The notes under the pieces were generated by a model. It saw nothing but the letters and a program-made list of their open reading frames with translations. It had not been told where the DNA came from and made no database searches. The position numbers were made by a program, and so were the translations under genes. Positions 1,432 through 44,806 of a stretch of DNA of 64,000 nucleotides are shown here, piece after piece (position 1 is the stretch's first letter; each line of letters starts with the position of its first letter). Location of the stretch: NCBI GenBank assembly GCA_029891385.1, contig CM057233.1, positions 33,524,540 through 33,588,539 of the forward strand, in the 5' to 3' direction. The DNA is from Erythroxylum novogranatense (taxonomy: Eukaryota; Streptophyta; Magnoliopsida; Malpighiales; Erythroxylaceae).

Positions 1432-1452
1432 TATATATATATATATATATAT
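1432..1452. repeat. (TA)n microsatellite
   Basis: About ten TA dinucleotides within the partial LTR, between its sense start (1755) and the donor-like site, so it could also serve as the TATA region of this minus-strand LTR. Confidence 0.8.
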
Positions 1453-4012: not shown

Positions 4013-6246
4013 AAATTAAGGGCAAACTTGGAAAACCTAAGTGAAGGAGGGGCAAAATTGGAAGAAAGGGAGTAAAACAAGAGATAAAATTTTGTTTGAA
4101 TTAGAAGAAGAAGGGAGGTGTCGTAGGAACCAAAAAGAAGAAGAGAAAAATGTGGAAAAGAAGAAGAGAGGAAGAAAGAGTCGAGGAAATTTGAAAGGAA
4201 GAAGAAAGAAAAAAAAAAAGAGAAATCTACTTGTTGGAGGTAAGTTTTCATCTTCTTATGCTAGATTCAAAAAGGGGATTAAATAGAGGTTAGGGTTTGT
4301 GTTGGAAATTAAGGAAGAAACGAGAGAAAGATGAAAACCAATTGATTTTGAGATTTCTAAGTTAGGGTTTTAGTTTGTCTAGCCTATATGGGCTATGAGT
4401 AGGTTAGGTTTAAATTCAATTTTAGCATTTCTTTGATTCTTGAATTTTATGAACTTTCTTTTGAATATATGTATTAAATAGAAATTGGTTTAATTGAAGG
4501 GAATCAAGGAAACCATATTCAAGAGAGAGAGGAAAGGCAATCTTGAGCTTGGATTTTCAACAATTTAGGTGGGTAATATTTTTATAGTTGTTGTGTGATG
4601 GGCAAATGCCCTATGTGCATGTGATTTTTGCTTAAATTGTATAAATGTTAAATTGTGGTGAATATTTGAAAATGCATGAGGAAATATGACATGTTTTCTT
4701 GAAACGAATGAAAACTATGAAAATATGAGAATTTGATAAAATGAAAGAAGCACGACAACACAAATTTGCGGTTGATTAATTTGAGCATAGATTTGTTTAT
4801 GATTGGGCAAGAGAGAAACTCGTTTCGTTATTCACGTGCACGTTGACCTATAGCCTTTTCTCAGCTTCCCGCTTGAGGCCACGAGATCCTGAGAAATCAG
4901 ACTCGTTTTGTTCACGGTGTAAACCGTTTTGTTCCACGAAAACTCTCTAGCCATTTGTTGTGCATTTCATTATGACTTTGTTGAGTATGATGCATAACAA
5001 AGTGTTATGATTGATAGAAGATTTCATGATATGCTTGATCTGATAAATTTTGGTTGATTATGAATTATGTGATGAATTTGCGAATGAATTGGATTGCTTG
5101 ATATATGTGTATTTGTGCTTGTTGTGTGGCTCATTACTGATGGCTATAAATGTATTAGCCACTAAGCTGAGTTGCTCACCCCACTTTCTCTCCTCAGGTG
5201 CAAAACAAGACGAATGTGAACCTTGCAAGTCATTGGAAAACTTCAAGGCTTTAGATACTTTTGTACTAAGTTAGTAACTAGCCTTTTGGATAGCTTTTCA
5301 AGCATATCAAACATGAAGCATCTCATGTATTATGTATCTTGTGCTTAGTTCATGATGGACATGTTGATATGTGTTTAAAGCTATGCATGAACATTTATTT
5401 TGCTTGGGAATGAGAATGAGAATTCAAGTATTCTCTTTTTGAGTATGATTGTGTTGTTTTATAGATAGTGTATGAGATTGTGTATGACTTTTGTGAAAGA
5501 GGAATGTGCATGCGCATATTCTTCATTGTTGAGTTTGAAATTGGTTATTTGTTGTGGAATAGCATATTGGAGATTTTAAGGGTGTATGAGATGAATTGGT
5601 TGAGTTGGAGCTCAAAAGTACCGAAAGGTACTTGGTAGTGGGTGAATATGAAGGGAATTGTATTTTGGCAAGCCTTCCTAGGTATAGGAATGGTGTTCAA
5701 AAATTCAATGGAAAAATTGTATTGATCTAGATAGAATCAGTCAAAGTGGTCTTAATGAAAGTTGTAGCTTATATTTTCAACTTTCTAACGCTATAAAGTA
5801 TGACATTTTTTGATATCAGGGCTGGAAGTTATGATCAATTGAAGTCTTTATGTTGTTTTTTTAGGGGCAGTCACTTTGATTGAAATTTTGACCTTTATAG
5901 AGGTGAAAATTGCTCTTTAGATCTTCATAAAAGTTGTAGATTGCCTTTTTATCTTTCCTTTAATATAAATTATGGAATTGTTGGACATTGGAATTGAGAG
6001 TTGTGATTTTTAGAAGTTCTGTTACTGTTTAGTATGACCATTTTCAGGCAGCCACTTTATGGTGGGTTCTGACTTATTTTAGAGGCCGAATTGGTTTTTA
6101 AGTCCTTCATAGAAGTTGTAGAGCTTCATTTTAACTTTCCATTGATACCAAATTTGTAAATTTTTGAGTTCTAGGTCATAAGATAGGAATTTTAGAACTT
6201 AGGTTGCTGGAAAAGGAGAGAAAAAAAAAAGAGAAAACCAAGAGAT

Positions 6247-6370
6247 CACGTGGATAGCGAGCGCGACGCCGCGTTTTCGCGCGCACTCGTGAAGGTGAAT
6301 GCGTCACCTTGTGACTCTGTAATGATCATGACCGTGTTGCGATGTGACACCGTCGCGAAAGCGATGCGAC
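6247..6370. repeat. CpG-rich island in solo LTR4
   Basis: A GC-rich block in AT-rich surroundings, with repeated GCGACGC, CGCGC and CGTCGCGAAAGCGATGCGAC-type words forming imperfect palindromes. Comparable islands lie in LTR1, LTR2 and the chromodomain element's LTRs. Confidence 0.75.
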
Positions 6371-6967
6371 CCTTTTCCCTCCCTTGACCCGATCTCTTTT
6401 CACTCTTTTGCCTATAACTTTTTCATCCGACTTTCGATTGACCTAATTTTTAAAGCTTTGGATTTCTAATACAATCCTCTACCTATCCACCAAAATTTGT
6501 AGGTTTTGATTTTAATTTGAAAAAGATGGATTGAATCAAAGTGAGTTGGATATTTTTTCTGAACATGCTTCAGTATTTTGGCGATATTTTGATCTGTAGA
6601 GCTTCGATTGCTGATTTTTGTTTCAAATTAAACTAGAGACATGGAGCTACAACCTATCTGAAGGAATTGAATTTCAATTTGGGCCCTAAGACTTTCAATT
6701 TCTGGAGTGAATTCGGGTGTAGTATTCAGTCTTGGTTTAATGTTAGCCCAATAGTGTTTTGGCCATAACTTCTTCATTTCTGAACCAAATTGAGTATTTT
6801 TGGTGCCGTTAGAAATGTAATTCAATGGGGAACAAATGTTCTAAAGAAGCTGGTCTGAGACTCCAAATGGAAGTTCCCCAATTATGCTCAGTAAGTTATA
6901 AGAAGTGAGCCCTCCACGAGTTTATGATTCCGAATGTTGGACTTCGAAAATAGGGTCCAACAATCAT

Positions 6968-7380: not shown

Positions 7381-8029
7381 TAATATTTTTTGCCCCATTT
7401 CTGAAACCCAACAATCGTTTCGAATATCATAAAACGTGAGCATATTTCTCTGTAGGGTTATTTCAATAAAATCTCCTTAGTCATCATTCTTATAACATCT
7501 CAATCCACAAAGGCAAACCCACACCAGTTAAACGCCCAAATCACCACTTGAATTTAAAAAAAATTGCTCCATGTATCTAGTTTATTTTGAAACAATAATT
7601 ATCTCATTTATAGCTCTATAGATCAATATATTATTAAAATACCAAAGTATGTTCAGTAAACAACCAATTCTTGCTCTTCCAATCAATTCCCTCAATTTCT
7701 CTCCATCAATCTTTTTCAAATCAACACCAATAGATACAAATTTTTATCAAGAGGTATAAAAATGAGTTAGGAATCTATTGGTTCAAAAATCACTTCATTA
7801 TAAGGTCGGAGGATGAAGTTATAGCCAAAAGAATCAACTATGTTTATATCCTCAATCATATTGTACCTATCTTGGGACAATTGGCATAACTTTTATCAAA
7901 TATTTTGGATTAATGCCATTTAAAATCGTTTCAAAGAAAATTTCTAGATCTACAACTTCCATGCAGAATGTGAAACGAGATTTTGCCTACAAAAGGGTCA
8001 AAATTGCAATTTACTGTAGTTGTCCCATG

Positions 8030-8215
8030 TATGTCCGTTAAATAGACGTACATGTTCGTCTAATGGACATAGACAGGCTTTGGGTGCCTTCTAGACCTAA
8101 GATAGTCCGTTTAATAGACCTAATGTCTATTTAACGGACATGGACTGGGATGGGGATGTTTTTACACCTGAGAAGGTCCGTTTAATGTACCTAAAGTCCG
8201 TCTAACGAACATATG
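8030..8215. repeat. GTCCGTTTAACGGAC palindrome cluster
   Basis: At least six half or full copies of a GTCCGTTTAACGGAC-like palindrome spaced 20-40 bp apart. The same cluster, with its own mutations, is at 26760-26945 in the partner LTR, so it was present when the element inserted. Confidence 0.8.
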
Positions 8216-10294
8216 TGTCACAAATTTCCTCCAAAGCCTCTCCAATGGTTCCTACATCCATTCTAACATCCCTTTCACTCATAATCTTCCAACACTCATT
8301 TCTTCTACTGCAATATCACTCCTTAAACATTCAATTACCAATTTGGTTGCATTAAACTCCCAAATCTCAACTGAAACGACTCATCACATTTAGCCAATTC
8401 TTAAAACTTACTCTAGTTGTCCTATATGCATCCTATGCTGCATCACCATCTATAGTGATCATATCTCTTAACTCTGATATCCAAAAATTACATGCTTTAT
8501 ATCATTAGAAAGCTAGAAATACAAGCTACAACCTTCATGAGATCTCTTTGGCTAATTCTACCTAGATAGATGTATTTTTTCCCTTGAGTTCAAAACATAA
8601 TTTCTATACCCATGAAAGCTTGTAAAATGCAATATCTCTTCATATCAATTCAACTATTAAATACTTTTCATTAAACTCTTGAATCTCATCTCAAATGATT
8701 CATTCCATACAACCTTTCCAAATCTCTAGCATGCTATTTTAAAACTAACCACAATTTGCAATCTCAACGAAGAAGAATATGCATATACACATTCCACTTC
8801 CACCACCATCATACTCAACCTGTAAAATAACTTAATCATACTCAAAAGGAAATCCTCAATTTCCCATTATCATTGCTAAACAAAGTAAATATTTGAACAA
8901 GCTTTATTTACATATCAACATACATATCACTAACTTAATAGAAATACAAGTGGATGCTTAATGTTTGGCATGTTTAATAAGCTATCCAATAGTGTTCGAA
9001 CTAGCTTAGTACAAAAGTTAACTATATCGGAGTTTGTCTAATTGCCTTGCAAGGATCACTAATCTTCTTGTTCTGCACCTGAGGAGGGAAAAATGAAGGA
9101 TTGAGCGACATAACTCAGTGGTAATATATTTATAGTCATTGGCAGTGAGCCACACAATCAAACATACATTTGTGTATTCATATAGGCATACTCATCTTAT
9201 CTTAATCTAACAATGTAAGTTCAACATTCACAATTCCAATTCACAACTTATAATTCAATATATCATCACATAAAACATATTGGATGTAATTTATCATCAA
9301 AGCATATCACACAAATTTCATCATAACTTAACATATCAAAATGAAAATGCACAAACAAATGGCTCGAGGGTTTCGTGGAACGAAATGGAGAAATCGAAGT
9401 TTACACTATGAACGAAACAAGTCCACTTTTCAGATCTCGTATGGCATAAACGGGCAACCAGGAGAAAGTTTTATGTTGATGTGTATGTGACTATGACATG
9501 ATTCCTCTCATGCCTATACAAAAGCACATATTCATGCTTAATTTGATTCATCACAAACTTATATTCTCATGCTTTTTCTTCTTTCATTATTTTTCTTCTT
9601 TCCATTTAATCAAAATTTCATGATACAATTCCAAGGCATAGCATGATCATACTCACAATTCAATTATATCAAAATGTCTTACATAATAATGCATTTACAT
9701 CACAACAATTTAAAATAAGCCATTTTAGCAAATAATACACGCACAAGGCATTTTGCTCATATTACACAACAATTACAAATAAATTACCCTCCTTATTTCA
9801 CTTGAAAATCTAAATTCAATTTTACCCTCCCTCTTGCTCTTGAATAGGGTTTTCTTGATTTCCTAACATAACTAAAATTCTCATTCAATCCACATTCAAA
9901 TGGAATTCTCCCTAAAAAATCCATAATTACAAAAAAGTAATCAACATAAATCAAACTCAAACCTAACCTACCCATAGTCCGTCTAGAATAGAAAAACCAA
10001 AACCTAGTTTCGAAACCCTAAAATCAAATGGGTTCTCTTAAATCATCTTCTTCTAACACAAACCCTCCATTCTCTATAGAAACCCCTTCCTCTCTCTAAC
10101 TCCTTCTCTAACAAAGCAAGAAGAAAAAGATGAACTTACCTTGATAAGCTTGATTTCTTCTTCTTTCTTCTTTCTTCTTTCTTCTTCCTTCCAGGCTTCT
10201 CTTGCCAACTCTCACGAATTCTCTCTCTTCTCCTCTCTTATTTCACTTTTTTTTCTCTCTTTGGTTTCTCACGACACTTCTCTCTTCTCTCCAT

Positions 10295-10456
10295 GTTTAT
10301 TTGGTCTTTTTCCCATTTTCCCTTCATTTACCTTATCCTTCCCATTATGCCCTCCTTTTGTCTTTAAAACTACACGTTTATTTGGTCTTTTCCCATTTTC
10401 CCCTTCATTTACCTTATCCTTCCCATTATGCCCTCCTTTTGTCTTTAAAACTAACA
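10295..10456. repeat. 81-bp tandem duplication, two near-identical copies
   Basis: The unit starting GTTTATTTGGTC at 10295 recurs at 10376 almost unchanged. The partner LTR has one copy (about 38255-38335), so the duplication arose in this LTR after insertion. It spans the TTTTAAAGAC segment that may act as the TATA region. Confidence 0.9.
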
Positions 10457-10899
10457 TCTTATACTTCTAATTCCTTAACTAAATCCTTCCAAAATCCAAA
10501 AGGAATTTGATAATGCTTCCTTTTTAAAAAATGTTCCTCATTGTCTTAATTTTCTAATGACACCAAAATCATTCCATTTGGTTAGAAAATCTGAAAGTTA
10601 TATCCTAAACATTTATGAGCTATTCTTATACTGAAACAATATTATGTGCTCAACTTCCATCAAACAATTAAAAGTCTTAAGGACTGAATTAGAACTAGAT
10701 TTCATCATATAATTTTTATACATATCTCTCTTGTTTAATCCAAATAAAAATCACCTAATTTTGATAACTAGAGAAATAGTTATGGCTAAAACACTGAAGC
10801 ATACTTAGTGAACATGTTTCAACTACATTTTTCAGCTTTTAACTTCCAACATTTCACATATAATAGTTCTAAGCTCCAAGAAAAGTTTGGGATTCAATA

Positions 10900-10916
10900 A
10901 TTCTACCCCCTTAAAG
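10900..10916 (-). promoter_or_regulatory. Polypurine tract of the 31-kb gypsy element
   Basis: On the minus strand it reads AAGGGGGTAGAAT directly before the LTR start, the primer site for second-strand synthesis. The matching tract of the chromodomain element is at 41609-41622. It fixes the orientation of this element. Confidence 0.8.
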
Positions 10917-13818
10917 AATGTCGTCCTCAAAATTCTTACCTGAGTGATCAAACAAATGGAGGTAATGTTGTCTTATGTCTTCCTCGGTCTCCTAAGTATC
11001 TTGTTCACTTAAATAATTTCTTCCAAACGGCCATAGCCAATAGAATCACTCGATATTTCAATCACTAATTTAGTCATTCACTTTCTTAACTAATTCCTAA
11101 ATGTGTGTGTGTGTGTGTCTCAGATTATTCACAATTTTCCACTTCTTACATCGATAACACCAATATCAAATAATATCGATATTTCTTAGCATATTCACAT
11201 ATAACACTTTATAAATTTGAGACATCTTTGTTAGTGATACTAACTCATAAGTCAATGGTCCAGTTTTTAATAACCTTATATGGACTAATACAATTCAAAC
11301 TTAGTTGCCTCTGAGCACATTTTGCACTCAATCTAAACACACCTTGGAAATGTGATACTCTTAGAAACATTTCATCCTTTGCTTCATAGTTCATATCTCT
11401 ATAGTGTCGGTGCACTTAACTCTTTTGTCTATCTCGTTATATTCCATACCTTTGGTGTTAATACACCTAATTCATTCATTTTTTTGAGTCATTTAATTCC
11501 TAATACAGATCAATTTTACTTATCAACAGTATCTCGAACCAATTTTGACCTTCAACCATCTTTAGCCCTATTCATCCAAATAAAGTGGTGGATGACTCTT
11601 TATGTCATATAATGTCGCACGGTATTTTAATGTTATCACTATGATAATGATTGTGACGCTTAAATTCAATCAAAGTTGTACATTGATCTCATATTCTTAT
11701 AAACTCCAAAAATATAAGCTTTAAGCATATCTCCAATAGTTGAAACCGTCAACAAATTCAAACATTCAGTTACTTAAGTCTACATTCTCAGTTGCTAAAT
11801 TGTTTCAGCGCATTTCTACTAGGATTTATCGCTTAAATTGTTATTCCTGTCTATCTAACAATCTCTTTGCTCAATCATCTTTATCGGTACATATAATTCT
11901 TATTTCAATCACAAGCATCATTTTCCAATTCAAACTCCTAATTCAAATTTATTTTCAATTCCTTAATAAGATTCTCAATTTTGGCTTTATTAATCCTTCC
12001 ATATGAAACTGATCTTCAATTCCATATCAAATAGTACTTTTATTTGCCCAAAATTCAACTCCACATTCTTTACTTCTTTTTGCACTAGATCTGATAACCT
12101 CAATATCTGAATTCTTATTTCACTACTATCGGGATTTTTGCTTAATGTATTAGATACAACACTAACTTTACTGGGAAATACTCATTTATATCATCATAAT
12201 CGTTCAGTATTTATATCTATTGTCTCACTCTCATATTCAATTCGCTCAACTCAATAATTTCCTGAAACTTTAATGATCTGTATATTTATATATATCCAAG
12301 ATGTTTCTGTACATATAATGTCTCCAACTTTCAAGTAATCACTATTTCAACAAGTTTCAATTCATGTATCAAATAATTAACCCATGAAGTTTCAACTATC
12401 TCCATGCATACGAAGTCACTTTATTATGTTGCATTGGATTTTATCCTAATCTCTTATACAACATCATTGCATACTATAAAATCTCCAAGTCCAGACGATA
12501 TAATTAATATTAGTATAATTCCTCAAAATCCTCTTTACTTTCATTACTCATATGATTTACACATTTTTCCTTAAGTATTCAAACTATTCTTCTCAACTTT
12601 TGAATACATTTAATATATCATCAAATTTTGCTTGGATCATTTTAAATCTTCAATCCCATGGTACTATATGAGAATTTATTACTTGAACAAATATTTCCAA
12701 AGCTCCACATGCCCATTATTATTTCTCGTAATTCCTTAAATAGCTGATTCCGCAATACCATAACATTATCTCAAGTTATTTTCAAATTCCTAGTTGACTT
12801 ACCTTTCTTAAATGATCTTCTCCATTCTTTAGATTTCTTCATATTTCATATTGACTTATTCTAATGTTTGCTCATTCAAACTAGTTTCTCTACACATTTC
12901 AACTTATTTGGAAACTTAACTTCCTATATTGGTAACACTTTCATTGAAATCTAATTTATATCTACTGTAACTTATTTGCAAACTTAACTTCCTGTGTTGA
13001 TAACACTTTCATCAAAAGATAATTTATATCTACTGTGCATATTTGTATAGAATATAATGTGTATCTAAGTTTTCCTCACATTAGCAATAGTGTTACCTCA
13101 ATTTCCAAAATCCACTCACGTAGTTAGATACTTTACATCAAACAAAATACATACATTCTCAGCAGCATACTCTATCTCTTATGCTTGAATCTCTACTAGG
13201 GATATGACTCCAATATTCACTTTTGATTCATTACATATTCATTTTTTATTTGTTCTTTCATTAATCATTCTTAATAAAAAATATTTGCTCTGCTTAACCT
13301 AATTCAATGAAATTCTTCTTCAAAAGAAGATTTCTTGCTACTATCATCTATAATGTTCATGCAATCTTTATCAATCAACTAATACCATCATCAATGATGT
13401 TTCAGCCATTCTTAACACGTCAATACGATCAATTTCAACTGTTCATTATATTTCAATAATTTCAATCTCTGTCACGTTTTACATTATCAAAATATCTTTT
13501 ATAATAAAACTCAATGAAATAAGAGGCATATTCGTTTACTCTTATATTTTGGTATGTACCATCAAGATCATTACATCTTATATAAAAAAAGTAATTTCGG
13601 CATGTCATCGATTTATATCTCATGCTATTAATACATCGATCGTAACTAATTTTGAGCAACCTCTGAATATTTTATGACTATTCAAAATTTCTCCTCTATA
13701 GTAATTACCTCTTCAACATAATAACCTATACCATACTTCCATTGCATTTCTTTGGTTCATCTCATAATTTTAACTATACGAATCATAGATTATCTCCTAT
13801 ACCATATCCAAATATAAA
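10900..13818 (-). pseudogene. Decayed gypsy pol (3' part) of the 31-kb element
   Basis: No open frame survives. The first 350-700 bp align by eye with the integrase C-terminus and chromodomain region at 41609-42060: shared anchors include CTTCCTCGGTCTCC (against CTCCTCAGTCTCC), CTTCCAAACG, AATAGAATCAC and the GGTCC...GGACTAATA stretch near 11260. Beyond about 11.6 kb the sequence is too AT-shifted to read as protein. A (GT)n microsatellite sits at 11101-11118. The piece ends at the target duplication of solo LTR2. Confidence 0.6.
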
Positions 13819-15365
13819 TGTTGGGACCCGATCCGAAAACCGAACCCCAACTGGAGAAACGGAACGAACGAAAGCAAAATCGAAAGAAAGGAACATAAGG
13901 CGGAAGCAAAATCATAAGCGAAAGCTAAGAATGGTATTTACAATACGAAAGCAAATCCAATCTTAAAGCGAAAGAATCGAAAGCAAATAAAAACGAAGCA
14001 AATTTTGGATAAAATCGAATCGAAACCAATTTTCGACATCTGTAAAAAAAGAACAGAGGAACATGATCGCGTTGGAAACCTTAAGACTATCGGTCTAAAC
14101 TAATCCAAATCCGTGTACATTTTTTTTCTTTCTTTCCTTATTTCTTTCATTTTCATTCCATCTCTTACAAAGTAACTTCAATATCCAATTGAAATCCTTC
14201 GCACTCAAACTCAACTTATTTGCTTCTTCATATACGATCATATATCATCGATTTAAACTCTCACTTTTCATTTCCATAAAATCGCACACATTCCAAATTG
14301 AATACCATTAATTCTTAATCAATTAGCACTTTAAATAATTCAGACCAACCATCACAATCATATACCCAATTCCATACATAACATACATAACTCATTTACA
14401 TCATGTAATAAATGCTTACGAGATATTAATGGCATTTCCAAGCCATAATACGACATCAATATCCAAAATTCGAATATGTACACAAATCCGATGATCATAG
14501 AATTCTCAACAACAATCTAACTTCCAACAAAACAATATGCACACATACAAACAAAAACCTTCAATTTTCTTCACCCGATCTTCTTCTCATCACCTGTGGA
14601 TGGGAATGAAGGGAGGTGAGCTTATAGCTCGTGGGTAACAGTTTATAACAAATAAATAAGCAAAACCTTTAAAAACACTTTTCTTTTCTTTTCTTGCTGA
14701 AACTTTGTTTGAAACCCATAAAGCACATTTTCAAAAGTTCTTTTCTCGTAGTAGTCGAAATCGCAATTTGCAAAACGTAAGATTTTTAGGCTTTCAGCCA
14801 TAAACCCATAGGTTACAAAACATGTAACATCCCGTCACCGATAGGATGGGTACAGTTCATTGCATACGTATTTTGCATGTGCATGCATTATTGAATTATG
14901 TATAATTGGCAATTATTGTACTGGCATTTGTACGTACATACATGTATGACATATTTTCGGTTTGATTTGGATAACTTGGATTTGGAGATGATTAGGGCAT
15001 GTGTGATAAGTAGGTCAAAGTAGGCTCGAGAATTGAATTTGAATTAGAAATGAAAGTTAGGAAATTGAATTATGAAATTGGAGTATACGATTATGAGTTT
15101 TCTATTTTTGGAGGATTTATAGAAATTTTTTCTGAAATTTTCGGAGCAATAGGCCCGGACCGGAAAATTGATCAATGACTGGTTAATTGGATTTCCGGTT
15201 CCGAAATTGATTATCCAATGGCATGGACAGATTAGAAATGTGAATTGAGGAATTAGGGTTTAGCTATTGGAATTCCGGAGAAATTAGAATTTAGAAATCG
15301 GATCGAGGTGGTTCGGATTTTGGCCTTGTGGCATTTAATTGCCAAACAAGCCTTATGAATCCTTT

Positions 15366-15382
15366 AATATATATATAAAGCT
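15366..15382 (+). promoter_or_regulatory. Putative TATA box of LTR1
   Basis: ATATATATATAAAGCTC, about 255 bp upstream of the donor-like site at 15636, followed by a pyrimidine-rich leader. The spacing matches the other LTRs in the window. Confidence 0.6.
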
Positions 15383-15914
15383 CTTACCTTTGAAAATTGC
15401 TCCACGATTTCTCCTTGCTTTTCAGATAAACTTCTTCTTCTTCCTTCTTCCTTCATCGTGGATTCTCCTTGGAGTTGTTGTTGATTCCTTCTTGCTATTT
15501 GCTTCCTCTTCTATCTTGGATCTATCTTCTAGCTTGGGGTTAGAAGAGATGGAAATGAGTTTTTGTTTGGGTGATTGTCGTGGGTGTGTGAGTTGGAGTT
15601 TGGTGTGATCCTTGAAGATTTGAGGTTTTAATCAAGTAAGTTACTTCTTTCTTGCCTTATGTAGTTTGATTGGTTGATTTATAGAGTTATTTGGATGATT
15701 TAGCATGAATATTTAAGGATTTGGCATTTAGGGTTTCCGATGGTTATTTTAGTTGATTTTAGGGTTGAAATTTTGGGAATAATGGTTGTTTGATGAAATA
15801 GAGCTAAGGATTAGTAGTATGATGTGTATGGAATTATTTGAGAGTGGTTTGAAAGGAGAAAATTTGGATTTGGAGTTGTTATCAATCGAAAATCTGGAAA
15901 TTTCTGGGTTTTCT

Positions 15915-16110
15915 AGGCGTGTCTGCGATTGCCTTGCCACAAGACGAAGAACACGCCTTCTGGCGAGGAAGGCAGACGCCGCGACGAATGAAGGCGCAAG
16001 CGAAGCTTGTGAGCTGGCGACGTCGCAACGTGACGTCTGTGATGCGTCGCGCATGACGAAGGGCGTTTGGTTATTTGACGAAGGCGAAGAGAAAGGAGCT
16101 CACCGCGGCG
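15915..16110. repeat. CpG-rich island in LTR1
   Basis: GC-rich block of GACGTCGC, GCGACGAATG and GTCGCGCATGACG-type words in an AT-rich LTR, inside the predicted first intron. The long frames crossing it on both strands are a consequence of the base composition and not genes. Confidence 0.75.
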
Positions 16111-16710
16111 AGGAATGCTTATTTCTGAAAATGTAAATTGAAGGTTTTAAAAATTGGGATTTAGGAATTTGATGATTCAATTGGATATGGATTGATTTCA
16201 ATTTAGAGATTATGAATTCGGGATTTAGAATTTGAGATCGGGAAATTTCGGATTAGTGTCGGGAATGTCATAACATGTATAGTACGTACATTATTCGATT
16301 CATATGCGTCATTGGGCATTGGAATTGATACAATTAGTAATGTTATTTATGTTTGATTTGTTATAGAGGTGCCAGTAGATCGCCGATTGTCCGACGTAGG
16401 CGAGACTTCCCGGCAGTAGCTCGGAAGTTCTCAGGTGAGTAACCTAGTTGGTTTCTCAACCTATATGTGTTATATTGTATGCAATTATGCCATGTGGAGT
16501 TAAGGATGGATGCTATGTGTTTGTTTTGATTGATTTCGGACCACCGATGTCCGAAATATTTGGACTGTGCTATAGAAGTGTTAATTGTGTGTAAATTGTT
16601 CATAATTGGTTTCAAATGGTGAGATTTAGGTATATGAAATTCCATAGTGATGCATGTATTGTAAATTGGATATGTGCATACATGCATAGAAGTATGATCA
16701 GATAAAGGCA

Positions 16711-16874
16711 GTTGTGACCGGTGCAGCCACCGTATTCAGAGCTTTAATCTCAATGCACAGGGCCTAGTGCCCAAAGATTTTCAGAGTTTTATGCTCAACG
16801 TATTAGGGCTTTTGAGCCCAATGTTCTCAGAGCCAATGTCTCAACGTATATGAGCTCAGGCGCACGGTCACAAC
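16711..16874 (+). other. 164-nt segment bounded by a 10-bp perfect inverted repeat
   Basis: GTTGTGACCG at 16711-16720 pairs perfectly with CGGTCACAAC at 16865-16874. Between them are repeated TCAGAGCTTT / TCAATG / GAGCTCAG words that could form smaller helices. The left arm is kept at 39544-39553 in the chromodomain element's LTR and, as GTTGTGACC, near 49271 in LTR5; the right partners there are degraded. Confidence 0.65.
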
Positions 16875-18639
16875 AACGAAAGAAAATGAAAGAGTCACAT
16901 GTGCATTGCATATATGAATGTTCCAAACGTAAAATTGAATGCATGTGATTTTCGTTTGTGATATATGTATGATATTGTATGAATGTTTGAATATGCATGA
17001 GTTGGGTGGACCATCGATGATGGTTTCTCACTGAGTTCGCAAACTCACCCAACATTGCATCTATTTTTTCAGGACAGCGATAGTTTGACTCCTAGCTCCA
17101 GTCAGTGAGACTTTTCGTGCTGTGTGTGTGCCGGCGAGAGGAGCATGGCCCACAGGTCGGTCAGCTGGGAATCTTTTGGGATAGTTTGGGGATGACCTAG
17201 TTAGGAGTTGCTACTGTTTATTTTTGGCTTGTACAGTTGTAAATATGACCGAATGGTGTACTTATGGTTTTAAGAAATGAAATGAGAAGTACTGTTGGGT
17301 TTTAAAATTTAGTGAATTTGATATTACTGCTTTATTATATTGATGCCATGAGGTTTATAGAAATGATCGTTTAGTAGTGCACCCTCATCGTAGGTTATGC
17401 ATCGGTACAACCTACGGGCGTCCCGGTGTATACTCTACGGAGAGGGGGCACTACAAAACATGAATGCATCAACTTGACAATTCATAGATGCATTGGAAAA
17501 TCACATATGCATTGCATAATAAATGGCTCGAGAGTTCCATAAACACAACGGTTTATACAGTAACACAACGAGTCCGATTTCTCAGGATCTCGTGGCGTCA
17601 AGTGGGCGGCCGGGAGAAGGCTATGGGTCATCGTGCACTAGACTAACGAAATAGGTTCTCTCTTGGCCACACAAAAAAACATATCATGCTCAAAACAATT
17701 TATCGAATGCTCTTTCCCAAATATACGAAATGCCATGGAATCTTTCGAGGCATAACTCAAATGTATTTTGCAATTCATCAAAATTTCATGTATTCAATCA
17801 ATAATGATTTTTCAAATCATTCATACAATGATGCAACATTGATGATGCAATTGAAATCATAAAATCTCTTTGTTTAAAAAAAGAAGTAGTGGCTTATAAA
17901 TTCTATTATAAACAAGTACCCACCTCGAATCGATGCTAGAAGCTTGACTTGTTCAATGCATCAATTTGACCATTGCATCTTTCTTTCTTCCAATTGAAAA
18001 TTCCCTACACCATTTTCACACAAATTCAACCTCATAAATAACATAATCCTTAAAATTGAACTTAGGAAACACTAATTCCACATATAATCAAGTTATCTAA
18101 ATCACCAATTTTCAAAATCCCCAATTCACAAAATTGGGCATAACCCTGATTAATTTTCATCCAAAATTAAACCCATAACACTTAGCAATCACCGAAATTG
18201 ACTCCATAATACACAAACCCATATCATTTTCCATTATTCTAAACCAAAAATCTTCAAAAATTCACAAATCAAAATTTAGTGTCTTACCTCATCCTTCACC
18301 ATTTTCGGATATATCTTGGTTTGGAAGGAAGCTTTCATCATCTTCCATCCTTTTTCCCTTGGATCAACTCAAAACTCCCTTGAAATCTCCCAAAAATCGA
18401 AAACCCTATGCTTTCTCTCTCTTTTCTCCATCACCGAAGTTTCTCTCATTGTCCTCTCTTTCTCTTCTTTCTTTTCTTCTCTTGTTGTTTTTCTGTCTAA
18501 GTGTCGTGCATTATCTCCTTATAAAATACCACAATCTTGCCATGTCATTAAATGACTGAGGAATGACCCATATGTCCCTCCATTTAAGCCTATAACTTAA
18601 CCCTTTAAGTAAACTTCCAAAATTTCCCCTTCCTTTTTG

Positions 18640-19660
18640 CCTTAAAAACTTTATAAAAACGTCCATCTATGTCTTACGAATCCATCGCTTCAATAATCGG
18701 ATCGATTGGAGCTCTATAGCTCAAGATATCTCCAAAATATTGAAGTCTGTTCTTCATACCCGAGGCTTAACACTACACCTAATTCCTATCCGAAATTGAA
18801 AGTCTTAGAGGCTAAATTGTCAATCGTATCCTTCATATAAAATGTAGATCCATGTTTCTAGTTTAATTTGCAAAAAGAATCAGATCGATCGGAGCTCCAT
18901 AGCTCGAAATATCTCCAAACTACCAAACGATGTTCAGACCATTACAAAACTGAAACTGAACACTACACCTAATTCCGATCTGAAATTAAAAGTCTTAGAG
19001 GCTAAATTGTCAATCAGATCCTTCATAACATTTGTAGCTACATGTATCTATTTTAATTAGCAACAAGAATCAGATCTATTGGAGCTCTAAATCTCAAGAT
19101 ATCTCCAAATTACTGAAGTCTGTTCGGCCATTACAAAACCAAGACTGAACACTACACTTAACTTCGATCCAGAAATTGAAAGTCTTAGAGGTTAAATTGT
19201 TGATTGGCTCCTTCAGATAAATTGTAGATCCATATCTCTATTTTAATTTACAAGAATAATCTGATCTATTGGAGCTCTATAACTCTAGATATCTCCAAAT
19301 TACTAAAGTCTATTCAGCCATTACAAAACCGAGACTGAACTCTACACCTAACTTCAATCCAGAAATTAAACCTCTTAGAAGCTAGATTGTCAATCGTCTC
19401 CTTCAGATAAATTGTAGATCCATGTCTTTAGTTTAATTTCCAAAAGGAATCAACTCAATCGGTACTCTACCGATCGAGATATCTCCAAAATACCCAACTA
19501 TGTTTAGACTTTTTCACAGATCAGCTCAATTTAATCGGGTCGATCTTTCTCCATTTAATCTCAAAATTGATCTATTTAGTATTGAAAGATAGAAAAATGT
19601 CTTAAGAATCCAATGCTTCAAAAATCAGATCGATCGGATGTTGGACGTAGAAGTTATGGC
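18640..19660. repeat. Tandem array of ~185-190-bp units inside LTR2
   Basis: The marker word ATCAGATC.ATTGGAGCTCTA...GATATCTCC recurs at about 18697, 18878, 19069, 19257 and 19447, with a partial copy at 19621, so spacing is 174-191 bp. Each unit also carries AATTGAAAGTCTTAGAGG and ATTGTAGATCCATG segments. The units are diverged from each other, so the array is old. Confidence 0.88.
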
Positions 19661-19681
19661 CAAAAGAGTGAAGGGAGGTCG

Positions 19682-19790
19682 GTCGGCTGAAAATTGAGCC
19701 CGCGGGCCAATCGACCAGCGCGCGGGCGCCTCGCTCGCCCGATCGGGCAGGCGCGCGGGCGCCCGAGAGATCGCTCGCGCGATTCGACCT
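19682..19790. repeat. GC island with GCCCGATCGGGC palindrome
   Basis: Extremely GC-rich block: GCGCGCGGGCGCC occurs twice, with the perfect 12-bp palindrome GCCCGATCGGGC between the copies and TCGCGCGA following. It lies upstream of the predicted promoter of LTR2. Confidence 0.85.
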
Positions 19791-20935
19791 CCTAACTTCC
19801 GACCTTTATATCTTTTGACTCCGAATTCCAAATTTTACAAACTTGATACCGTTGGAAAGATAAAAGACAACTCTACCATTTTCAAGAAGGACTCAAAATC
19901 AATTGAGGTCTATAAAGTGATCAAAAATGCACTCAAAGATGACCGATTGATAATCTCCTCAAAACTTTAAACAACACCTCAACTTGTAAATATCATAACT
20001 TTTAACCCAGAACTCCAAATCTGACAGACTTGGTGTCTAAAGAAAGGTAAAAGAACCCTATATAACTTTTGTGAAGGTCATAAAAATTAGATCGACCTAT
20101 ACACAAAGTGACTGGTCGATCGGCTTCACACTAAACAGCATCAAAACTTCTAAGAATCATAACTTTCTACTCCCTTGTCCAATATTTTCGTGCTCTATAT
20201 CAATGGAAAGATAAAACAAGCTCTACAATGTTCATGAAGAACTCCAAAGCAATTTCAACCTCTAGCTAAGTAAATTTTTCAATCAAATTTTCTGCCCTGT
20301 TACTAATCACCTAAGCAATATCCAAACTTCACATTATCATAACTTCTAACCCCGATATCGAAAAATTGCATACTATACATCATTTTAAAACTACTCTAAT
20401 TCTCTATAACTTTCACATAAACCATTTACTCCAATTCAAACCATATCAGTACGGTGATCGGCCTCAAAGCATAATACACACAAATCTATACTTCATAGTA
20501 TTTCTCCAAAACAACGCCAAGTACACTTAACTTTGAAAACTCATAACTTTTGATTCCGATATCAAAAACTGTCAAACTTTATGGCTACAGAAAGCTCTCA
20601 ACATAATCTACAAATTTCATAAAGATTATTTCCTCAAAATCTGCCCAAATCAAAAGGTCAACTCTTTACTCCAAAAAGTCAAACTTTCTAATTTCTTCAA
20701 AATTTTACACTTTCACTTTTTATTTCTTGATTTCAACTTCTATTTCAATCATCTCATCCCCTTAAACTTTCATAACCAAAACTAATCTTCAAAGTCATCA
20801 AAACCAATAAATTCTTTTTCTCATCAATTTCCTCAAGGCATAAAACTTCTATAACACAATTCATATCCGAAAATACTCATTGAATTCATTTTAATATTTC
20901 TAATTTTCACAGAAAGTTTGGGGTCCAACAATAAA

Positions 20936-21516: not shown

Positions 21517-24500
21517 TGTTGGACCCCAAACTTTTATTAGAAAATTAGAACTGCTAAACGAGGAATTTTGGTGATTCGTCCTGAGTAAAGAACAAATGAT
21601 GAAAATTCTCGAACCAAAAAATGATAGGCAAGGGTAAAGTGATGAATGAGTAATGTGGATAGATTCATGTCTTACTTTGGTGTTTTTGTGGATAAAAGAT
21701 ATCAAAATGGGAAGAATTAAGGTGAAAGTTAGAAGCAACAATGAAGTTGAATTTGTGAAGTAAGTTGATGAGGAATATGTATATGGAGTTGAGAATGAGG
21801 AGCAAATGAAGTAGAAAAGGTGATCTTAGTATGATTTGTGTTAAGGAAAGATTGTTAAACAAAATGGGTGGTGGATCTGGAAAATGATTACTGAATATGT
21901 TTCAGTCTTTTAGCTACAAATTTTTTTCTAGTTATCCAAACGAGATGATTATTGACTTGGATTAAACTAGAAACATATGGCTACATTTTTTATGAAGACA
22001 TAGAATTTAAATTCTATCTTTAATGATCTCAAAATTTTTCATGAATTTGAGAATTAAGTGTAGTACATTTGATGAATGTAAATTTGTATTTTGAATTCAA
22101 GGGCAATTCTAGATCGATCTAGGCTAGAAAAGAGAAAGTTGTCTCCTCAGAAGTTGTAGGTTTTTCTTTTAGTTTTTCAACGGTATATAATATGGAATTT
22201 GTGAATTTCTAGGCTGAAATTTATGGTCATTATAAAGGAAGATGTATCTTCTGTCTTTTCGCTTCTTCTATGTTTTGTTTCTTCTACTTTTTGCTTATTT
22301 TATTTTTTCACCTTACCTATTTTTTGTTCCATTTTTGGCCCTCAAAAAGATAGAATCTATCTTCAAGGCCTTCACAAAAGTTGTATATCTTGAAGTCTTG
22401 TTTCAAACCATATAAAGAACATCCTAATTTGATATCTGTAGGGAAAGTTATAGTAATTTTTCCAATTTGTCTTTTTTTTTTCATTCTTCTGCTTTTTCAT
22501 TTGGTTTCATTTGTACCTATCTTCTGGTCCATTTTGACCCTTCAAAAGATAGAATTTGTCTTCAAGTATTTATCAAAGTTGTAGATCTTGAAATCCTATT
22601 TCTAACGATATAAATAACATCCAAATATGATATTTTTAGGGAAAGTTATAGCAATTTTTCCAATTTATCAGTCTTTTTTCATTCGCTTGCTTTTTCATTT
22701 AGCTTCATCTATACCTATCTTATGTTCCATTTTGGACCCTTTAAAAGATAGAAAATATCTTTGAGGTCTTCATAAAAGTTTTAGATCTTGAAGTCCTCTT
22801 TTGAACCATCTAAGAAACACTCAAATCTGATATCTTTACGAAACGTTATAGCAATTTTCCCAATTCATCTATCTTTTTTCATTCGTATGTTTTTTCATTT
22901 GGCTTCGTCTATACCTATTTTCTATTTTATTTTTGACCCTAAAAAAGATTTAAAAAAATGTCTTCTAGGTCTTCATAAAAGTTGTATATCTTGAATTCCT
23001 ATTTCTAACCATCTAAATAACACCTAAATCTAATATATGTAGGGAAAGTCATAGCAATTTTTCCAATTCGTCTGTCTTTTTCCATTCATCTGCTTTTTCA
23101 TTTGACTTCATCTGTACCTATCTTTTGTTTCATTTTTGACCCCTTAAAAGATAAAAATTGTCTTTGAGATATCCATGAATGTTTTATATCTTGAAGTCTT
23201 CTTTCGAAACATCTAAAAAACACTCAAATCTTATATCTTTAGGGAAAGTTATAGCAATTTTCCCAATTCGTCTATTTTTTTCCATTCTTCTACTTTTTCA
23301 TTTAGTTTCATTTGTACCTATATTCTGGTCCATTTTTTACCCTTCAAAAGATATAATCTATCTTTTAGTCTTCATTAACGTTGTATATCTTGAAGTCTTC
23401 TTTCCAACCATATAAAGAACACCCAAATCAGATATCTGTATGGAAAGTTATAGCAATTTTTCCCATTCGTCTATCTTTTTCCATTCGTCTACTTTTTCAA
23501 TTGGTTTCGTCTGTACCTACTTTCTGGTCCAATTTGATCCTCTGAGTGATAAAATTTGACCTCAAGGTCTTCTTCAAATTTGTATATATCAAAGTCCTCT
23601 TTAAAATCATTCTAAAATAATCTTAATCCAACATCGCTGTTGAAAGTTATGTATTTGTCCCGAGACAAGTTCAATATGAGTGAGAACCAAATATTGTTTG
23701 ATTTCGTTTGGACATAGTTTTGTTATCCAACCTCCAAATGAAGTGATTCTTGAACAAATAGTTTCCTAACACATTTTTTCGTCCCTCCAAATATTTTTAT
23801 AGCTTTTTGTATTAATTCGAAAAAGATAGATTGAATCAAAGTAAGGGTATCGATTTGGAAGAGTAGAAATTGGATATTTTTACTGAACATGCTTAAGTAT
23901 TTTGAATGTATCTGGATCTATAGGATTCCATATAAGATGGTTCTTGTTTCAAGATAAACTAGAGACATGGAGCTATAAAGGATATGAAGAAGTTGAAATT
24001 TAATTCAGTCTCTAGGACTTTCCATTTTTGGATGGAAGTTGGGTATAGTGTACTGTTTCAGTCTAACAACATTCTGAAATGTTTGGGCCCTAACTTTCAA
24101 ATTTTTGAACCAAATGGATTGATTTTGGTGTCATTGGAAATTTAAGACAAGAGAGAGAGCACTTCTAGAAGAAAGAGTTATGTCAGAATATTCAAGGGTG
24201 CTTTTGACAAGACACTTAAATATAAGAGACATAAAGCATTAAAGGAAGGGCAAGGTGGACTTTTATCAATCATTAAAGGTAAGATGGGAAGAAAGAAATG
24301 TTGTTTCCTTCCTTAAGAGGGGAAAAATGAAAATGGGAAAAAAAAAAGAAGAAGAAGTGAAATAACAAAACAAAAGAGAGGAAAGAAGAGAGTTAAGCAA
24401 AGGTTTCATCTTTTCTTAGTCTTCAAGAGAAATTTTGGAGTTGTTCAAGAAAGGAAAAAGGAAGAGGAAGAGAAGAGCTTCCCTTTGAGCTAAAGATCCC

Positions 24501-25844
24501 ATCATTTGGTAAAGAATGAAGGTAAGATCATTTTAAATTTTTAGGATTTTTTGGAAGGATTTTAGTTCATGGAGTTCAGAAAAGGTTTGGGTTTAAGTAT
24601 TCTAGAATCAATTTTAGTGATTGTGGTTTGATGAATTTTCAATTAAAAATTTTATTGAGTGGGATTTTTGTTATTGTATAAAGGGGTCAAAAAAGGCAAT
24701 AGGAACAAGAGAAGAGGCTTTTTGATCACGTCCATAATCTAGAAAATCAAGGTAGGTACATGTTTCTAATTGAGTAAATAAGTCACTTTTGTTTTTTTAA
24801 TCAAGAAATTTACTGATTTCTACTGCATTATAAGTATTGCATTTATTGTTTTCGAATGATTTATGAAATCTGCTATATGTTGCTACATGATTTGTGTGAT
24901 GATTTATCAAAAGTTGTTTTTTAAAATGATTCTTTGAAATCATGCATGATTATGAAACCATACTTTTGAAAATGGTTTTTTTTATCGGTATAACAAGCAT
25001 GTGAAAACCAAGTTTTCAAGAGAATGTACCATTTTGGGCGTCAAGCTTACAAAAATTTTGGAAATCTATATGTTATATGGGTTTGTGGTAGTCCCTTAAG
25101 AACTGCCACATGCATGTTGATCCAAGATAAAGGCTTCTCCTGCCTTCCCGCTAGTGGCATGGAATTCCCTCAGGGACTCCCTAAAAATTTCATAATTACG
25201 CAGGACCATTATATTGGAAATATGTAATGCGTCATGTTTTTGGACTTACCCAAACCATTTTGATGTGTTTACGTGCTCATGTTATGTTAACATGTTTGAT
25301 GCATTCATGTTTTGTAGTTTGAGATTTTGGCTACATGATGGGAATTTTTTTAAGGACAAGTGTTTTATGAACTCAATGAAAATTTTTTATGACAAGTGAA
25401 CGTTTTCAATAGTTTTTACTTATTTTTCCATTATAAATTTTTGCCCATGAGTTGTCAAGCTCACCCCCTTTTTGTCCCCTCTTCAGGTGATAGTTAAGAG
25501 ATCAAGTGATCAAAAGCCTGAGGGAACTTCCGCAAATTTATTAATTGTATTTTGTGATAAGCCAATGGTGTGGTTTTTGATATGTAAATAAATTTTTTTC
25601 AAACTTCGTTGCTTTAGAAATGAAATGATAGATTGAAGTAGTTAAATTATGTATGTATGTTTATATTGTTTTCCTTATAATATGGTTGAGTTTAAGTAAT
25701 AAGTTTGTTTGATGTTTGATTGTCATGGGCATACCACCCTTGTGGGATGATGCCTAATAAGTGTTCATAGAAATAACCCTATAGGATAATACACTCAGGC
25801 TTTATAATTTCGCAAAAGTTGAGTTCCAAAATCGATGCCCAACA
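21517..25844 (+). mobile_element. Solo LTR3 (type II gypsy LTR, 4328 bp)
   Basis: Starts TGTTGGACCCCAAAC and ends GATGCCCAACA, with target duplication TCAGT (21512-21516) and TCAAT (25845-25849), one G/A mismatch. No coding region. In order: a six- to seven-unit ~199-bp tandem array (22260-23640), TATA-like TTAAATATAAGAG near 24207, a purine-rich leader at 24300-24480, donor AAG|GTAAGA at 24521/24522, a block conserved with other LTRs at 25020-25170, and acceptor CTCTTCAG|GTG at 25486/25487. Its first bases equal the sense start of LTR2 and of the 31-kb element's LTR. Confidence 0.91.
22260..23640. repeat. Tandem array of ~199-bp units inside LTR3
   Basis: The marker AAAAGATAGAATCTATCTTC and its variants recur near 22345, 22545, 22742, 22940, 23146, 23345 and 23543, so spacing is 197-206 bp. 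Each unit carries a GTTGTAGATCTTGAAGTCCT...GATATCTGTAGGGAAAGTTATAG cassette and a T-rich tail ending GACCCTT. It lies upstream of the predicted promoter. Confidence 0.92.
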
Positions 25845-26118: not shown

Positions 26119-28814
26119 TGTTGGGGGCCATTTCTGAAGCCCAACAATCGTTCCGAATATTATAAGACGTGAGCGTATTTCTCTGTAGGATTATTTCAGT
26201 GAAATCTCCTTAGTCATCATTCTCACAACATCTCAAACCAAAAGGGCGAGCCCACACCAGTCAAACGCCCAAATCACCACTTGAATTTTTCAAAAAAAAT
26301 TTAGCTCCATATATCTAATTTATTTTGAAACAATAATCATCTCATTCATAGCTCTATAGATTAAGATATGATTAAAATACCGAAGTATGTTTAGTAAACA
26401 ACCAATTCTTGCCCTTCCAATCAATTCCCCCAATTTCCCTCCATGAATCTTTTTCAAATCAACACTAATGGATACCAATTTTTATATAGAGGTAGAAAAT
26501 GTGTTAGGAATCTATTGGTTCAAGAATCACTTCATTTTGAGATCAGATGATGAAGTTATGACCAAAAGAATCAACCATGTTTATATCCTCAATCATATTG
26601 TACCTATCTTGGGACAATTGGCATAACTTTCACTAGAGATTTTTGATTAATGCCAATTTAAAACGATTTAAAAGAATATTTCTAATCTACAACTTTCATG
26701 AAGACCAAAAAGCGAGATTTTGTTTTCAAAATGGTCAAAATCGCAATTTACTGTAGTTTTCTTGTGTATGTCCATTATATGTCCGCCTAACGAACATAGT
26801 CGGGCTTAGGGCACATTTTAGACCCGAGAAGGTCCATTTAACGGAACTTATGTCCGTGTAACAAACATGGATTGGGCTGGGGGTGCTTTTACACTTGAGA
26901 AGGTCTGTTTAACAGACCTAAAGTTCGACTAACAGACATATATGTCACAAAATTCCCTTCAAAGCCTCTCCAATAGTTCCTACATCAATTCTAACATCCC
27001 TTTCACTCATAATCTTCCCAAACTCATTTTTTCTAATGCAATATCACTCCTTAAACATAAAATTACCAATTTGGTTGCATTAAACTCCCAAATCTCAAAA
27101 TAAATGACTCTTCACATCCAACCAATTCTCAAAACTTACTCTAGCTATCCTATATGCATGCTATGCAACATCACCACTTATAGTGATCATATCTCTTAAC
27201 TCTGATACCCAAAAATCACATGTTTTATATCATTAGAAAGCTAGAAAGACAAGATACAACTTTCATGAGGATCCCTTTGGCTAATTCTACCTACATAGAT
27301 GCAGTTTTTCCCTTAACTTCAAAATATAATTTCTACACCCATGAAAGCTTACAAAATGCAATATCTCTTCATATCAATTCAACTACTAAGTACTTTTCAT
27401 TAAACTCTTGAATCTCATCTCAAATGATTCATTCCATACAACCTTTACAAATCTCTAACATGCTATTTTAAAACTAACTACAATTTTCAATCTCAACGAA
27501 GAAGAATATGCATATACACTTTCCACTTCCACCACCATTATACTCAACCTGTAAAATAACATAATCATACACAAAAGGAAATCCTCAATTTCTCATTATC
27601 ATTGCTAAACAAAGTAAATATTTGAACAAGATTTATTTACATATCAATATACATATCACTAACTTAATACAAATATAAATGGATGCTCAATGTTTGACAT
27701 GCTTAATAAGCTATTCAATAGTGTTCGAACTAGCTTAGTGCAGAAGCTAACTATCTTGGAGTTTGTCCAACTGCCTTGCAAGGATCGCTAATCTTCTCAT
27801 TTTGCACCTGATGAGGGAAAAATAATGGGTTGAGCTACACAACTCAGTGGCTAATATATTTACAGTCATAGTCAATGAACCACACAATCAAACATACATG
27901 TGTCTATTCATATAGGTAAACTCATCTTACCTTAATCTAACAATGTAAGTTCAACATTCACAAGTTCAATTTACAACTTATAATTCAATACATCATCACA
28001 TAAAACATATTGGATGTAATTTATCATTAAAACACATCACACAAATTTCATCATAACTTAACAAATCAAAATAAAAATGCACAAACAAATAATTTGAGTG
28101 TTTCGTGGAACAAAATGGAGAAACCAAAGTTTACATCATGAACGAAGAGTCTGGAGAAGGCTTTATGTCGATGTGCACGTGATCACGAAACAATTCCTCT
28201 CTTACCCATACAAAAGTACATCTTTATGCTCAATTCGATTCATCACAAATTCATGTTCTCATGCTTTTTCTTCTTCCCATTTACCATGATACAATTCCAA
28301 GGCATAACATGATCATACTCACAATTCAATGATATCAAAATGTCATATATTATAATGCATTTTCCATATCACAACAATTAAAAACAAGCCATTTTAGAAC
28401 ACAATACACATACAAGGCATTTTGTTCATATTACACAATAAATATAAATAAATTAACCACCTTATTTCACTTTAAAATCCAAATTCAATTATACCCTTCT
28501 TCTTGTTCTTGAATAAGGTTTTCTTGATTTCCTAATATAATCAAAATTCTCATTCAATCCACATTCAAATGGAATTCCTCCTAAAACTTCCATAATCATA
28601 AAAATGCAATCAACAAAAATCAAGTTCAGACCTAACCTACCTATAATATAGATTAGAAAAGCCAAAACCTAATTTAAAAACCCTAAAATCAAAAGAGTTC
28701 TCTTAAATCATCTTCTTCCAACATAAACCCTCCATTATCTACACAAAACTCCTTTCTCTCTCTAACTCCTTCTCAATCAAAACAAGAAGAAAAAGATGAA
28801 CTTACCCTCACAAG
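26119..28814 (-). mobile_element. 5' LTR of the 31-kb element, left piece
   Basis: Left part of the LTR split by the copia insertion; it continues at 38043-38779. Matches 7386-10899. Contains the palindrome cluster (26760-26945), acceptor CATCAG|GTGC at 27808/27807, an eroded conserved block (28088-28190) and donor GGG|GTAAGT-like site at 28805. The last 46 bp (28769-28814) are repeated at the start of the right piece. Confidence 0.88.
28769..28814. repeat. 46-bp duplication, left copy (flank of copia)
   Basis: Identical over 46 bp to 38043-38088. The uninterrupted partner LTR has one copy of this stretch (about 10101-10146), so it was duplicated when the copia element entered. Normal copia duplications are 5 bp. 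Confidence 0.92.
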
Positions 28815-44800: not shown

Positions 44801-44806
44801 AACCGC

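Follow-up and report, generated by a model that had tools for sequence, protein, structure and literature searches.

A predicted intron pair conserved inside the long terminal repeats of two chromovirus-related classes in Erythroxylum novogranatense

The window analyzed here is a stretch of 64,000 nucleotides (nt) from contig CM057233.1 of Erythroxylum novogranatense (positions 33,524,540 to 33,588,539, forward strand), in which long terminal repeats (LTRs) of retrotransposons appear to carry a conserved pair of introns. The features concerned are collected in Table 1. For LTR1, the first-pass annotation had given the splice motifs and lengths correctly, and the AAACA target-site duplication (TSD) flanking both sides now identifies it as a solo LTR. 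L2 and L3 are the two LTRs of a chromodomain element. A second class of LTRs, found by reading both strands of the window, starts with TGTTGG and ends with CAACA (class II: LTRs A, B/C, D and E; B's own ends are decayed). Across these eight near-complete LTRs, which represent six insertions and two classes, one layout is shared: donor 1 is followed by a candidate mini-exon (67-81 nt), then by donor 2 (lost in B) and a TGAG..CTCA word with acceptor 2.

Table 1. Coordinates of the LTRs, predicted splice sites and associated parts in the window (a slash marks a predicted exon-intron border)
Feature	Position	Strand	Details
LTR1, solo LTR (TGTAACATCC...CACTACA)	14823..17455	+	TSD AAACA (5 bp) on both sides; nested in LTR D
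LTR1, TATA-like run TATATATATAAA	15368..15379	+	268-262 nt 5' of donor 1
LTR1, predicted intron 1, 731 nt	15636..16366	+	CAA/GTAAGTTA ... GTTATAG
LTR1, mini-exon, 68 nt	16367..16434	+	no ATG
LTR1, predicted intron 2, 638 nt	16435..17072	+	CAG/GTGAGTAACC ... TTTTTTCAG
LTR1, hairpin-forming TGAGTT-CGCA-AACTCA	17032..17047	+	CTCA is the branch-site candidate
LTR1, exon 3	17073..17455	+	poly(A)-like TGTAAAT at +165, then likely U5
L2, 5' LTR of chromodomain element	46268..48931	-	donor 1 48116, mini-exon 47343-47277, donor 2 47276, exon 3 from 46654
L3, 3' LTR of chromodomain element	38924..41608	-	donor 1 40793, mini-exon 39999-39933, donor 2 39932, exon 3 from 39310
Chromodomain element, interior	41604..46263	-	broken gag, protease, RT-RNaseH and integrase-chromodomain frames
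LTR A, solo	3827..6962	+	TSD ATCAT; donor 1 4240, candidate mini-exon 4500-4568 (69 nt), donor 2 4569, exon 3 from 5198
LTR B, 3' LTR, both ends approximate	7386..10896	-	donor 1 10139, candidate mini-exon 9862-9792 (71 nt), exon 3 from 9078
Decayed chromovirus integrase C-terminus/chromodomain	10914..11273	-	directly 5' of LTR B; E = 6.5e-9
LTR C, 5' LTR, main part, split by copia-type element	26119..28813	-	donor 1 28805, candidate mini-exon 28531-28461 (71 nt), donor 2 28460 (weak), exon 3 from 27807
LTR C, first part, U3 and exon 1	38043..38778	-	
LTR D, solo, first part	17456..20930	-	TSD TTTAT; donor 1 18287, candidate mini-exon 18004-17924 (81 nt), donor 2 17923
LTR D, second part, past LTR1 insertion	13819..14822	-	hairpin word, acceptor 2, exon 3 from 14593
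LTR E, solo	21517..25844	+	TSD TCAGT/TCAAT; donor 1 24522, candidate mini-exon 24684-24751 (68 nt), donor 2 24752, exon 3 from 25487
LTR5, remnant, right end approximate	48937..49560	+	donor 2 at 48963 (ACT/GTGAGTAACC), intron 2 sequence
LTR6, probable partial LTR (starts TGTAACATCC)	1..1755	-	may extend past the window; donor 1 at 1021 (CAG/GTAAGTAG)

The minus-strand chromodomain element encodes reverse transcriptase (RT) and RNase H followed by an integrase ending in a chromodomain, the order of Ty3/gypsy chromoviruses, and Pfam detects RVT_1, RT_RNaseH and Chromo within it (the last at 29.6 bits, cutoff 25.1). The TG...CA LTRs, 5-bp TSD, primer-binding site (PBS) and polypurine tract (PPT) of this group are present as well; the PBS/PPT check gave a PBS-like TGGTATCCGAG after L2 and AGGAGGGGAGAAT before L3. 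TSDs are exact for LTR1, A and D and contain a one-base mismatch in E and in the chromodomain element, and the ends of B/C show no clear target duplication. The long LTRs and terminal chromodomain of the chromodomain element are suggestive, and only suggestive, of the Tekay clade. Element B/C is also assigned to the chromoviruses because a decayed integrase-chromodomain stretch adjoins LTR B; the solo LTRs A, D and E are linked to B/C by LTR likeness only. As a separate observation, two very strong donor-like sites, at 44878 and 42809 (both on the minus strand), lie within the interior of the chromodomain element and could give rise to a subgenomic RNA or belong to a further, internal intron.

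The splice sites proposed for LTR1 on first reading are all present (donors at 15636 and 16435, acceptors at 16366 and 17072, an exon of 68 nt), and L2/L3 likewise carry the predicted introns of 773/794 and 622/622 nt around mini-exons of 67 nt. Positions 15920-16110, within predicted intron 1 of LTR1, form by eye a GC-rich and CpG-rich block. A similar GC-rich block is seemingly present in intron 1 of L2/L3, and GC-rich blocks occur elsewhere in LTRs A and D. The terminal ~85 nt of LTR1 (17374-17459) form an imperfect inverted repeat with a 72% self-match.

Between LTR1 and L2, blastn matches are confined to islands at LTR1 positions 1-30, 253-432, 1539-1637, 2038-2090 and 2171-2633. The third of these consists of the mini-exon and both its splice sites, and it is the sole island common with L2/L3 between LTR positions 433 and 2037. 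At its end, LTR1 matches L2 and L3 with 90-91% identity over the last 160 nt. In the full alignment of LTR1 with L2, acceptor 1 is identical at 8/8 positions, donor 2 at 11/11, the mini-exon at 73% and a stretch of 72 nt with the hairpin word and acceptor 2 at 85%; the corresponding identities are 48% for intron 1, 57% for the body of intron 2, 50% for exon 1 and 64% for exon 3. Pairwise comparison within class II gave mini-exon identities of 77% versus 59% and 65% for the introns in A-B, and 64% versus 60% and 52% in D-E.

The layout had initially been described as a property of one type of LTR, a restriction that does not stand, as the very different class II shares the site order. A blastn comparison of class II with LTR1 yields one short low-score match in A and otherwise none. 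Still, A, B/C, D and E run from a GTAAG donor through a candidate mini-exon (68-81 nt) to a second donor site (lost in B), and 3' of donor 2 comes a TGAG..CTCA or GAGC..CTCA word followed by a pyrimidine-rich CAG/G acceptor. The mini-exon had also been reported in the fragment LTR5, where donor 2 and some intron 2 sequence are indeed kept; the exon itself was cut by the element's insertion, which left ~26 nt on that side. Joining the LTR5 flanks makes eight AG-ended exon lengths of up to 110 nt possible (66 and 43 nt included), none of them selectable. Tandem repeats of ~190 nt (18792-19551) and ~200 nt (22368-23468) were seen in the predicted unique 3' (U3) regions of LTRs D and E.

To rank the donors, we used the energy of the duplex that 11 bases of each form with the 5' end of U1 small nuclear RNA. 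By this measure donor 2 comes first in six of the eight LTRs (LTR1, L2, L3, A, D and E), in LTR1 ahead of all other GTs (181 in total), and donor 1 is among the top three in 7/8 LTRs, ties included. Seven of the ten strongest U1-matching donors among the 6022 GTs on both strands of the whole window are sites of these LTRs (hypergeometric P 1.6e-5, although L2 and L3 are one element). This count includes donor 1 of LTR6, the strongest among 101 GTs there, in an interval drawn around the site after it had been sighted; without LTR6 it is 6/10. The other three are internal to retrotransposons: 56207 (+) and 44878 (-) fall within listed reading frames, and 42809 (-) between frames of the chromodomain element. 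Energies range from -11.4 to -13.8 for donor 2 in six LTRs and from -5.6 to -10.7 for donor 1, compared with -10.4 for the best antisense site in the eight LTRs and -9.3 for the best site in two copia LTRs; by these controls donor 2 stands out and donor 1, by energy alone, does not. In five families (LTR1, L2, A, D and E) the distance from the strongest donor down to acceptor 2 is 622-735 nt, and choosing a random GT per LTR gave an equally small spread in 3/200000 draws, from which B and C (strongest donors at 1061 and 833 nt from acceptor 2) were excluded. Conserved GT...AG borders with U1 complementarity, as in functional introns, were found apart from donor 2 of LTR B (GA), the weak donor 2 of C and the weak donor 1 of LTR1.

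A hairpin-word and acceptor pattern, shaped on LTRs already seen, has 7 matches versus 0.12 expected in Markov sequences; six of the seven lie in these LTRs and one at 33208, with C and D missed. The word GAG[CT]..CTCA, also chosen after the LTRs had been seen, precedes 10 of 556 YAGG sites, and in eight of these ten cases the site is acceptor 2 of one of the eight LTRs. All eight LTRs share the candidate branch site CTCA without variation, its A placed 20-26 nt from the exon and within one arm of the hairpin. In the alignment, inspected by eye, the fifth hairpin pair is T-A in LTR1, L2 and L3, T-G in C and E and C-G in D, and deviates in A and B.

A TATA-like word (TATA[TA]A or TATAAG) is located 235-324 nt 5' of donor 1 in 8/8 LTRs, with D having another at 368 and B, C and E having TATAAG only. 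Poly(A)-like words occur 96-207 nt past acceptor 2 in 7/8 LTRs, reading TGTAAATAAA in B, C and E, and A has no listed word; for both words these are raw counts. The intron pair had been placed inside the LTR, in the unique 5' (U5) leader. The first part is well supported by the sequence, and the second is modified: with the introns between TATA-like and poly(A)-like words, the repeated region (R) is likelier than U5, and the three exons most likely constitute R, with U5 next. Taking a start estimated at 228 nt 5' of donor 1, the chromodomain element would have an unspliced leader of 2258 nt, in which 54 ATGs precede the presumed ATG of gag (46086); removal of both introns would leave 863 nt with 10 ATGs. 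Over six LTRs (L3 and C, being second copies, were excluded), the introns contain 245 ATGs versus 147 +/- 11 in mononucleotide shuffles, and the exon stretches 57 versus 60 +/- 7. The mini-exon is free of ATGs in 7/8 LTRs and has three in D. A coding role for it was considered and rejected, since lengths of 67-71 or 81 nt do not keep the frame, and the open reading frames (ORFs) of the joined exons reach at most 14-40 aa and are unlike one another by eye.

Together, these results lead us to propose, with a probability of about 0.74, that the LTRs carry in their likely R a splice set for three exons and two introns, whose predicted splicing would produce a short-leader Gag-Pol mRNA, with the unspliced RNA as template for reverse transcription. 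The conserved pair of predicted introns inside the LTR is well supported by the comparisons above, and splicing of these LTR RNAs is a strong prediction. Transcription would start shortly past the TATA-like word and exon 3 would end at the poly(A)-like signal, and with both introns out of the mRNA most upstream AUGs would be gone from the leader. Spliced RNA would thereby be assigned to translation and unspliced RNA to reverse transcription. The branch-site hairpin may slow the splicing of intron 2 and so set the ratio of the two forms, and a solo LTR would amount to a complete three-exon noncoding gene.

In retroviruses and LTR elements, minus-strand strong-stop DNA is a copy of R and U5 made at the RNA's 5' end, so that a spliced template would yield intronless LTRs. 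Only RNA unspliced at its 5' R would be a productive template, since a spliced R, once copied, would leave both daughter LTRs without the introns. Among the near-complete LTRs of the window, intronless ones number 0/8; all eight contain the sequences of both predicted introns, so their templates were unspliced there. One transcript of an LTR element must serve as both mRNA and genome, and sorting mistakes would erase the R introns, so that the persistence of these introns makes the sorting of RNA pools testable from the genome through counts of intronless LTRs. If correct, the proposal would account for the translation of elements whose 2-kb leader is full of AUGs, and solo LTRs would be ready-made spliced transcription units in plant genomes. 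A broader version, which we regard as doubtful, joins all the parts: an old three-exon gene would reside in R of plant chromoviruses, solo LTRs would be complete spliced noncoding genes, and the branch-site hairpin would be the switch between mRNA and genome. Every full-length RNA would then have two introns at each end, and wrongly spliced RNA, once copied, would leave intronless LTRs as fossils.

Several observations weigh against the proposed splice set. In the free alignment of LTR1 with L2 the two donors 1 are unpaired (2/8), so that the expected conservation of splice sites relative to introns holds for acceptor 1 and donor 2 and fails for donor 1, whose alignment argument was dropped. 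The donor 1 of LTR1 is weak (10th of 181), donor 1 energies overlap those of the best antisense and copia control sites, and exon 1 is conserved no better than intron 1 (50% versus 48%). Acceptor 1 of D and E is identical at 1/8 positions, and in class II it is one choice among several AGs per LTR, which makes the agreement in mini-exon length partly a result of choice; the class II sites were first picked by eye and ranked afterwards. A free alignment of A with D gives 42% identity in the mini-exon, and there neither of the two donors nor the mini-exon exceeds its surroundings. Donor 2 is weak in C (17th of 225) and reads GA instead of GT at 9791 (-) in B; as the partner LTR C retains GT, the loss in B is apparently decay after insertion. 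Among the 30 strongest donors, the modules of these LTRs account for only 10 (P 9e-4), with 20 located elsewhere. Counted per 200 nt, there are 8-10 ATGs in exon 3 of A, D and E and seven in exon 1 of D. The fold energy of the hairpin is no outlier, with 5-26% of AGs in the same LTR as stable and LTR A folding differently; hairpin stability was therefore dropped as evidence in itself.

A search for relatives adds one further point of this kind. A scan of GTDB gave four loci encoding a relative among 41 matched stretches, of which the 5' parts of two (L003 and L005) and the ORF lists of all four were inspected. An LTR end ahead of a PBS-like site was seen only in L003 among these parts. This contig (NZ_VCHY01000050.1, 1-3565, filed as Labilibacter sediminis) encodes a plant-type chromovirus with a 58% identical RT and thus looks like contamination; a matching donor set was not found in its LTR, which is truncated to about the last 1231 nt. 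No relatives were found in viral contigs by the element's reading frames, where single-protein queries reach close relatives only.

Among other explanations, the signals may be used but yield a short noncoding RNA confined to the LTR and ending at the LTR's own poly(A) site. The TATA-like word, three exons and poly(A)-like words within one LTR (A without a listed poly(A) word) fit such a product, as do the four of six insertions that are solo LTRs keeping the set and the joined-exon ORFs of only 14-40 aa at their longest. We nevertheless consider it unlikely, though deserving of real weight: the 2.2-kb leader with 54 ATGs ahead of gag would still need removal, and selection on a solo product would presumably not act via transposition unless the element benefits. 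It is also conceivable that the LTR donors splice mainly to acceptors in the element interior or the 3' LTR, acceptors 1 and 2 of the 5' LTR being minor. Retroviral leader donors behave in this way, the mRNAs of bovine leukemia virus (BLV) sharing a donor at position 305 (PMC1839114), and the donor 2 sites of LTR1, L2 and L3 are the strongest donors in the window. Yet acceptor 1 is conserved together with the mini-exon as one block in LTR1 and L2, something that long-range splicing alone would not need, and this makes the idea quite improbable.

Slightly more improbable still, the conserved blocks may serve another RNA or DNA function, such as packaging, dimerization, promoter activity or polyadenylation, and resemble splice signals by accident. 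Conservation between LTR1 and L2/L3 indeed extends to the U3 island (LTR1 253-432) and the last 160 nt, both of them free of predicted splice sites, but U1 complementarity, GT/AG placement, a T-rich tract and the branch-like CTCA coincide as expected in two classes. Chance splice-like motifs in AT-rich DNA, chosen by eye, are already disfavored and highly improbable: single donors and acceptors of such quality do occur randomly (3 of the top ten and 20 of the top 30 donors lie elsewhere), but five families are consistent in the order, spacing and rank of donor 2, and the hairpin-acceptor pattern, shaped on seen LTRs as it was, greatly exceeds its expected count.

The remaining features of the window concern other DNA. 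A copia-type element (28814-38042) is nested in LTR C; its 1083-nt LTRs are 94.8% identical, and it has an extra ORF at 31044-31616 (-) beyond the pol frames. At the gathering threshold, Rfam gave no match within the LTRs. It placed the plant snoRNA snoR71 (48 bits, gathering 40) at 55913-56016 (-), antisense within a 1514-codon gypsy-type frame at 55610-60154 (+).

The predicted splice set of these LTRs can be compared with several known systems. In deltaretroviruses (BLV and human T-cell leukemia virus type 1, HTLV-1) the leader donor sits in R, and the acceptors are internal, so that the intron is not contained in the LTR, unlike the predicted pair here. The likeness lies in the leader donor, which in BLV (position 305) is common to most spliced mRNAs (PMC1839114). 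Plant LTR elements are generally intronless, with Ogre and EVADE as notable exceptions according to a 2025 review (PMC12786077). Ogre, of the Tat lineage, is likewise a plant gypsy element, and its intron is spliced in a subset of transcripts only; that intron lies between ORFs (PMC6317226), in Ogre-type elements between protease and RT, whereas the splice set found here consists of two predicted introns inside the LTR. The copia element BARE1 resembles the proposed system in keeping RNA pools for translation and reverse transcription apart, and differs in that a 104-nt intron in gag yields a Gag-only RNA (PMC3735527); in EVADE, also copia, splicing takes out the protease region (PMC12786077). 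The predicted LTR introns end 5' of gag and so belong to neither of these types. Tyran and Varan of sunflower are spliced copia elements, and Tekay is absent from the expressed set described there (PMC7730604), which does not favor an easy RNA proof in this clade. Splicing of rice MIKKI joins solo-LTR sequence to another element (PMC5599236), and the LTRs of ONSEN have been suggested to contain splicing sites (PMC12112155).

Diaspora of soybean, from the Athila lineage, shows a likeness in having five predicted donors in the LTR, 1400-2200 bp 5' of gag-pol, and a 5' untranslated region that would be exceptionally long if unspliced (PMC1142308). Its predicted acceptors, in contrast, lie beside the gag start codon, and the cited passages describe no mini-exon or conservation test; the same paper stated in 2005 that an intron 5' of gag had been reported in no LTR retroelement (PMC1142308). 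Rice Retrosat2, assigned to the Tekay clade (PMC6317226), is a chromovirus with LTRs of >3.2 kb and an R annotated at ~2 kb, for which no introns are described, the word 'intron' occurring 0 times in the main text (PMC3485330). An intron pair lying within a plant LTR was not found among the literature matches listed, a coverage that leaves most subscription journals outside. Splicing of LTR elements is as such already known; to judge from sequence, the new feature here would be that a conserved pair of introns lies wholly within the LTR.

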